Made by a program: the position numbers and the translations under genes. From NCBI GenBank assembly GCA_029252405.1, contig JAQXBM010000072.1, positions 1 through 64,000 on the forward strand: 64,000 nucleotides of DNA. The letters run 5' to 3'. The notes below the pieces were generated by a model. That model ran no database searches. It saw only the letters and a list, made by a program, of their open reading frames with translations, and was not told where the DNA came from. This document shows positions 1 through 644 of this stretch, one piece after another (positions within the stretch are counted from its first letter, which is position 1; every line of letters starts with the position of its first letter). The DNA is from Crocinitomicaceae bacterium. GTDB lineage: Bacteria; Bacteroidota; Bacteroidia; Flavobacteriales_D; Crocinitomicaceae.

Positions 1-2
1 TC

Positions 3-644
3 CAGCGCAGTTTGGAATTCGCCAAAGAAGAAGACATTCCGATTAACTCTGTGGAAGGGTTCGTCCGCCAGATAGTGGGTTGGCGCGAATTCATTCGTGG
101 AATGTATGAATGCAAAGGACAGTACTCGCGCACGCAAAATCATTGGAAGTTTGACCGAAAAATTCCCGTTTCCTTCTACGAAGGAACAACTGGAATTGAC
201 CCAGTAGATGACGCTATCAAAAAAGTCCTTGAAACAGGATATTGTCACCACATTGAGCGATTAATGGTCCTTGGAAACTTCATGCTTTTGTGTGAATTCC
301 ATCCTGATGAAGTCTACCGCTGGTTCATGGAACTGTTCATTGATGCATACGATTGGGTAATGGTGCCCAATGTGTACGGAATGAGTCAATTCGCAGATGG
401 CGGAACCTTTGCAACGAAACCATACATCGGCGGATCGAATTACATCAAAAAGATGAGTAATTATGGCAAAGGAGATTGGACAGCTACGTGGGATGGACTG
501 TTCTGGCGCTTCATCGACAAACATCAAGATTTCTTCCTGTCCAACCCGCGAATGAGCATGATGGTACACTCCTTCAATAAGATGTCACCCGAAAAGCAAG
601 AAGAACATTTGACAAATGCAGATGATTTTTTGAAGAAGCTTTAA
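3..644 (+). CDS. Cryptochrome/photolyase family protein (FeS-BCP/PhrB-like), 3' part
   Basis: The reading frame is open to the left edge of the window, so this is the C-terminal ~213 residues of a protein whose family is usually about 500 residues. The helical FAD-binding region is recognisable from GWREFIRGMY, HHIERLMVLGNFMLL, DAYDWVMVPNVYGMSQFADG and TKPYIGGSNYIKKMS, the blocks typical of bacterial (6-4) photolyases of the PhrB/FeS-BCP group. These enzymes repair UV photoproducts or act as light sensors using FAD. In the family, four cysteines near these blocks hold a [4Fe-4S] cluster. Here the usual DMxC site reads GIDP and the usual CxxC...ACPF segment reads YGKGDWTATWDG, so no ligand cysteine is in place. 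A cluster-independent relative is likely. Substrate is unknown. Confidence 0.85.
   Translation, partial: QRSLEFAKEEDIPINSVEGFVRQIVGWREFIRGMYECKGQYSRTQNHWKFDRKIPVSFYEGTTGIDPVDDAIKKVLETGYCHHIERLMVLGNFMLLCEFHPDEVYRWFMELFIDAYDWVMVPNVYGMSQFADGGTFATKPYIGGSNYIKKMSNYGKGDWTATWDGLFWRFIDKHQDFFLSNPRMSMMVHSFNKMSPEKQEEHLTNADDFLKKL

Follow-up and report, generated by a model that had tools for sequence, protein, structure and literature searches.

The photolyase-like gene at the start of the window, the 64,000-nucleotide stretch of Crocinitomicaceae DNA analysed here, probably encodes a working (6-4) photolyase, as judged from its sequence and from a structural model. We explain its function best, at a probability of about 0.75, as that of a DNA photolyase driven by blue light and belonging to the iron-sulfur-free subtype of the prokaryotic (6-4) group; we infer repair activity, lesion type and cofactors alike. 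Iron-sulfur-free members of this group are already in print (PMC9178010, PMC4619345, PMC12082625, PMC9426592), so the window protein adds one more ordinary member to a known subtype and is not the novelty that the original prediction implied.

The gene is truncated in the window because the window begins at the first base of its contig, so that the 213-residue frame runs off the contig on its 5' side. The other half is on contig C58 of the source genome, and joining the two through their exact 119-bp overlap gives a protein of 490 residues (Table 1). PF04244 (DPRP), the N-terminal domain typical of PhrB-like proteins, scores over its cut-off on C58, as does FAD_binding_7 on the window contig (C38); in a relative, L036, PF04244 passes and FAD_binding_7 reaches 22.4 against a cut-off of 27. 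A gene split over two contigs could reflect a sequencing or assembly error, or decay at a contig end, but the frame stays open through the exact overlap, and full-frame relatives have the same deletion and substitutions. The relatives already refute this explanation, whose probability is negligible, and a one-off loss or error in the source genome is rejected since the trait is common to relatives.

Table 1. Coordinates of the photolyase gene, its diagnostic codons and its neighbours (window positions unless a locus is given)
Feature	Position	Strand	Basis
C-terminal 213 residues and stop of iron-sulfur-free prokaryotic (6-4) photolyase-like protein; residues 278-490 of 490	3..644	+	frame reading; FAD_binding_7 over cut-off
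5' part of photolyase gene	contig C58, same genome, L032:1-948	-	PF04244 match; overlap
Exact 119-bp overlap with end of contig C58, joining the gene halves	1..119	.	sequence identity
Pro344 codon, position of PhrB ligand Cys350	201..203	+	alignment to PhrB
His360 codon, equivalent to PhrB His366	249..251	+	alignment; (6-4) repair role in PhrB, PMC4619345
Met397 codon, position of PhrB Glu403 beside FAD N5	360..362	+	alignment; role, PMC9178010
Tyr418 to Tyr424 codons, equivalent to PhrB Tyr424 (lesion binding) to Tyr430	423..443	+	alignment; roles, PMC4619345
Ten-residue deletion between Tyr431 (nt 462-464) and Gly432 (nt 465-467); Cys438/Cys441 loop gone	462..467	+	alignment
Trp436-x-Ala438-x-Trp440 replacing PhrB Asn452-Ala-Cys454-Pro-Phe456; both Trp are a clade signature	477..491	+	alignment
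487-residue cryptochrome/photolyase gene, DNA_photolyase and FAD_binding_7, directly upstream	L032:1075-2538	-	domain search
363-residue gene, FAD_binding_7 only, FAD-binding photolyase domain first	L032:2535-3626	-	domain search

Aligned to PhrB, the window protein has Pro, a deletion, a deletion and Ala at the four cluster-ligand positions: Cys350 becomes Pro344, Cys438 and Cys441 fall inside the ten-residue deletion, and Cys454 becomes Ala438 (nt 483-485). In the frame, the sequence is TTGIDP at the first ligand site and SNYGKGDWTATWDG across the CxxC...ACPF region. This alignment confirms the original prediction that the ligand cysteines are absent; the first of the sites (nt 201-203) lies outside the interval 240-540 in which that prediction placed the feature. 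The GWREFIRG, HHIERLM and QFADGG blocks are present in the frame, and the only cysteines of the 490-residue protein (314, 358 and 374) map to non-ligand positions, both as had been noted. Among 110 rows (the window protein and 109 relatives), none has Cys at any ligand position. The cluster loop measures 14 residues, compared with 24 in PhrB, and its length is identical in 107 of the 110 rows and in 136 of 139 in the larger set described below. Ligand absence is therefore more than chance, as evidenced by the lack of Cys in all 110 rows and the single loop length of 136 of the 139 cysteine-free rows.

A metal cluster might still be bound through other cysteines or histidines. The window protein retains three cysteines, and the columns of Cys374 and Cys358 hold Cys in 129 and 88 of the 139 rows, respectively. 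However, Cys reaches a share of 30% or more of rows in only three columns, those of window protein positions 111, 358 and 374; the window protein itself has Ala at 111, and PhrB has Ala at all three. Neither the number nor the placement of the cysteine columns examined suits a [4Fe-4S] site, making such a cluster very improbable, and one held by other cysteines is rejected on the column counts.

The larger alignment has 194 rows: the window protein, 29 proteins from related genomes, 80 genome_contigs and two viral_contigs loci, 10 plasmid records, 70 proteins from a 394-genome sample of the phylum, PhrB and the Caulobacter enzyme. All four cysteines are present in 53 rows and none in 141; partial intermediates were looked for in the 194 rows and none was found. 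Two of the cysteine-free rows (L144 and L148) are neighbouring genes and are excluded from the counts, which leaves 139 rows, 133 of them distinct. Four-cysteine rows come from cyanobacteria, a haloarchaeon, Streptomyces, Proteobacteria and, in large number, the window's own phylum. The cysteine-free rows sampled are nearly all from Bacteroidota, with one record each titled as Balneola and Neomarinimicrobiota, and the two viral_contigs loci. By title, the genera among the matches listed include the marine Polaribacter, Cellulophaga and Winogradskyella as well as Chryseobacterium, Epilithonimonas and Dyadobacter. Phyla other than the window's are under-sampled, because the genome_contigs scan gave at least 590 stretches, at least 572 of them encoding a relative, and the best 80 were used. 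The two viral_contigs matches (L128 and L129) are so labelled by the database; a phage-borne gene is rejected, as a relative's protein has no match in 50,697 phage records.

A tree built with the trait columns removed (34 cysteine-free and 52 four-cysteine rows, without the long-branched L129 and L134) places the two sets on opposite sides of one branch, with support of 100/100 and in 100% of 200 bootstrap trees. A rooted quick tree that keeps the trait columns (73 of 136 cysteine-free rows, 51 four-cysteine rows and two outgroup rows) has one change per set, with support of 96 for the four-cysteine set and 50 for the cysteine-free set. The latter is low because L027 and L128 sit at an open base, and the excessive length of the outgroup branches (5) makes the root unsure. 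The partial cysteine-free rows L007, L025 and L029 were left out of the trees. These trees imply one change of state between the sets, either a gain or a loss of the cluster; for the family as a whole, competing views of which group is ancestral are in print (PMC9498864, PMC9649867). Of the alternatives offered in the original prediction, a distinct clade is supported by the single 100/100 branch and by the lack of partial rows (0 of 194). The full gene, family alignment and tree that it had proposed agree, giving a 490-residue protein with Cys at 0 of 4 ligand positions and on a separate branch.

The predicted fold was obtained for a relative, the Cellulophaga baltica protein encoded at L064:5001-6467, which stands in for the window protein. 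Its AF2 model, built from 38 sequences, has pLDDT 87.6 and pTM 0.90. Confidence is lower in residues 391-420 (55-70), next to the lesion site, and in 171-180 (64) and 241-260 (67-69), and is 84-93 in the blocks from 421 to 450, the former cluster loop. VIA-align matches the model to PhrB (4dja) with Z 42.1 over 481 residues; the next class reaches 25.7. In Foldseek the first 11 rows are all prokaryotic (6-4) photolyases with TM by query of 0.87-0.93, after which values fall to 0.50-0.58, and all eight sequence matches in the PDB belong to the same group (best E 1.8e-82). The high values at 421-450 and the PhrB-like fold suggest that the C-terminal part can fold without ligands, as far as a model that omits cofactors can indicate.

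Active-site residues point the same way as the fold. His366, Leu370, Met371, Gln306, Met410, Tyr424 and Tyr430 (PhrB numbering) are kept in 139 of 139 cysteine-free rows, Asp179 in 137 of 137 filled rows, Asp254 in 138 of 138 and Trp390 in 135 of 139; the window protein itself retains the equivalents of His366 and Tyr424. In PhrB, H366N and Y424F are reported to abolish repair and Y430F to reduce it to 30%, and Tyr424 gives high affinity for the (6-4) lesion (PMC4619345). Asp178 and Asp253 of the Caulobacter enzyme, taken as PhrB Asp179 and Asp254 given a numbering offset of one, are predicted to bind Mg2+ (PMC12082625). Placement in the prokaryotic (6-4) group therefore stands on domains, predicted fold and active site, whereas assignment to FeS-BCP proper fails for want of the ligand cysteines. 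The original prediction's suggestion of other chemistry finds no support in the retained repair-site residues or in a predicted fold that matches the prokaryotic (6-4) photolyases; set against this are Met at the FAD-N5 position in all 139 rows, Tyr for Trp342 in 116 of 139 and an altered antenna pocket.

In the proposed mechanism, reduced FAD in the helical domain would absorb light either directly or with the help of an antenna housed in the N-terminal domain. Tyr418 would position the (6-4) pyrimidine photoproduct to which the flavin then transfers an electron. Protonation would involve His360, like His366 of PhrB, and the two conserved Asp residues would hold Mg2+. The [4Fe-4S] cluster, needed for PhrB folding, would be dispensed with, its ligand loop being ten residues shorter, and Pro344, Trp436 and Trp440 may pack into the roof-like C-terminal subdomain. 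Counting against this proposal, Cys-to-Ser mutants of PhrB are reported not to be soluble (PMC4619345). Trp342 is an electron transmitter in PhrB, and its replacement by Tyr in 116 of 139 rows also counts against a (6-4) photolyase.

The iron-free branch could have switched lesion and repair cyclobutane pyrimidine dimers. Such CPD repair has been predicted for the iron-free Phr2 of marine Synechococcus; phr2 loss lowers UV-B survival, and phr2 protects Escherichia coli from UV-B and UV-C (PMC9426592). However, that prediction is described as drawn from survival tests and the absence of the cluster rather than from lesions assayed in vitro (PMC9426592), and the retained repair-site residues argue against it here. 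All 139 rows keep His366, which CPD I photolyases replace by Asn, and Gln306, which is Glu in CPD photolyases (PMC3204975), as well as Tyr424, responsible for (6-4) lesion affinity in PhrB (PMC4619345). Another photolyase gene of the same genome, on contig C92, could also serve CPDs. We regard a switch of lesion as unlikely. A cryptochrome-like photoreceptor that has lost DNA repair is about as unlikely. Rhodobacter sphaeroides CryB, a four-cysteine relative from the same family, also regulates genes and has cryptochrome functions (PMC9178010), and most rows of the clade combine Tyr in place of Trp342 with a changed antenna pocket. Yet the lesion-binding and catalytic residues are invariant over 139 rows, and other photolyase-family genes lie nearby in many loci. 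The (6-4) photolyase reading is preferred to both.

The residues that replace the cluster ligands are nearly uniform in the cysteine-free rows: position 350 is Pro in 137 of 139, 452 is Trp in 138 and 456 is Trp in 134. One cysteine-free row, L189 (G120:C19), has Leu at 350, Phe at 390, Gly at 452 and Phe at 456; its match contains one stop codon, and the gene is possibly decaying. Near the flavin, position 403 is Met and 391 is Phe in 139 of 139. Position 342 is Tyr in 116 and Trp in 21, and position 460 is Phe in 124 and Tyr in 15. Met403 is not specific to the cysteine-free clade, as it also occurs in 3 of 53 four-cysteine rows. Among four-cysteine rows, 11 of 53, from the window's phylum (L150-L153, for example), have Val at this FAD-N5 position, a substitution for which we found no mention in the literature consulted.

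The antenna pocket is remodelled, with E37 changed to Phe in 115, H43 to Phe in 131, I51 to His in 129 and R108 to Trp in 99 of the 139 rows; K47 and E33 are kept in 135 of 135 filled rows. The Phe at the E37 position prompted us to consider 8-HDF as the antenna. However, CofH, the one protein of 8-HDF synthesis searched for, matches only below cut-off in 11 of 11 genomes carrying the clade, making such an antenna and its synthesis unlikely in those genomes; uptake of 8-HDF would be another route. A more far-reaching proposal combines protein-only replacement of the structural [4Fe-4S] cluster (by Pro344, Trp436, Trp440 and the short loop), altered flavin chemistry through a covalent or redox-active link made by the invariant Met next to FAD N5, as raised for Synechococcus elongatus PhrB, and an antenna other than lumazine or 8-HDF. 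The combination as a whole is doubtful.

Comparison with known systems clarifies what is shared. FeS-BCP proper, represented by PhrB of Agrobacterium fabrum, Caulobacter Cc(6-4)PL, CryB and SePhrB, resembles the clade in predicted whole-length fold (Z 39-42) and in His366, Tyr424, Tyr430, Leu370, Met371 and Asp179/Asp254. The clade differs in lacking ligand cysteines, in a CxxC loop ten residues shorter, in its Pro/Trp/Trp signature, in Glu403 to Met and Tyr391 to Phe and, in most rows, in Trp342 to Tyr and Tyr460 to Phe. S. elongatus PhrB (8ijy) shares with the clade a Met close to FAD N5 and a Phe in place of Tyr391 (PMC9178010); unlike the window clade, it keeps the Fe-S cluster and can use an 8-HDF antenna. 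The 8ijy entry title names covalently linked FAD.

Among iron-free proteins, the closest published description is that of subgroup M, which is made up of 20 of 110 sequences, comes from multiple lineages and lacks the four cysteines; it includes PromaPL of Prochlorococcus marinus (from Ma et al. 2019, as cited there). The same source favours the name prokaryotic 6-4 photolyases and treats FeS-BCP as one subtype of them (PMC9178010). Across the Chl, HC, Ac and M groups, 37 of 50 sequences (74%) have Met in place of Glu403, which makes it usual but not universal, and an intact Trp-Trp-Tyr-Tyr electron chain is reported in no M member (PMC9178010). The clade is alike in family, in the absence of the four cysteines, in Met at the Glu403 position and in the lack of an intact chain, whereas in the rows sampled this large clade, to which the window protein belongs, consists almost entirely of Bacteroidota. 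The comparison with subgroup M and PromaPL is by published description. In an earlier survey of 464 homologues, the 7% that have lost Tyr460 are reported to be without the ligand cysteines too, and neither 437 nor 443 is Tyr in the Cys-less homologues (PMC4619345). The window's clade agrees in that 443 is deleted and 460 is mostly not Tyr, but disagrees in having Tyr at 437 in 120 of 139 rows. As this site borders the deletion, the alignments may differ, or the 2015 set may be another Cys-less group. Several orthologues without the cysteines are mentioned elsewhere (PMC12082625), and Phr2 of most marine picocyanobacteria studied is of the iron-free type, with CPD repair predicted (PMC9426592). 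In 2011 the cysteines were still called completely conserved (PMC3204975). We found no title on a Bacteroidota iron-free clade among open-licence papers with a few query wordings.

The function of the cluster in prokaryotic (6-4) photolyases has been called "still elusive" (PMC12082625), and attempts to remove it from PhrB are reported to yield protein that expresses poorly or is insoluble (PMC4619345). With its repair residues retained and the cluster absent, this large natural clade is the control that mutagenesis could not provide. Should it repair (6-4) lesions efficiently, the cluster would be dispensable for the repair reaction itself. The clade also bears on the printed disagreement over whether iron-free members repair (6-4) lesions or CPDs. 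The natural cluster-free control and the Pro-Trp-Trp signature may be of specialist interest.

The two types appear to avoid each other in genomes. The 394-genome sample has 136 matched genomes: 40 cysteine-free, 92 four-cysteine-like by score and four unclassed (three weak, one fragment). Sequences confirmed the class of 29 cysteine-free genomes, the window's among them, and of 40 four-cysteine-like ones; at most three candidates were scored per genome, low scores falling outside the list. None of the 132 carriers has both types, compared with 9.3 expected under independence (P about 1e-5, which is descriptive only as the genomes are related). Among 80 related genomes, 45 matched: 28 cysteine-free (all read), 13 four-cysteine-like by identity (three read: L030, L031 and L196) and four weak. 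None of these 41 carriers has both either; class in the two samples is in part by score alone. This mutual absence fits one shared job for the iron-free and four-cysteine genes.

The source genome has four FAD_binding_7 genes. Two lie on C58 ahead of the photolyase gene and on the same strand, encoding proteins of 487 and 363 residues. The 487-residue protein reaches no NCBIfam model at its cut-off; the fourth gene, on C92, has CPD photolyase models as its best NCBIfam matches, all under their cut-offs. The 363-residue gene resembles reversed-domain photolyases (PMC9426592). A relative of its product is modelled (AF2 pLDDT 90.5) with the alpha/beta domain last, and residues 6-232 match the photolyase FAD domain (Z 14.3). 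A circular permutation of its C-terminal domain receives no support from hhalign, and structure matches cover mainly residues 1-232 and barely the C-terminal part. Among 82 loci (the best 80 of at least 572 and the two viral ones), a gene like the 487-residue one lies nearby in 41, one like the 363-residue one in 36 and TIGR03643 in 36, counts in which many contigs end early and some matches to the 487-residue protein are only 19-34% identical. TIGR03643 also occurs near a four-cysteine photolyase gene on an Acinetobacter plasmid. In a genome of the same genus (L036:3329-5544), TetR-like, ABC1/UbiB-like kinase and TIGR03643 (DUF2805) genes precede the photolyase genes.
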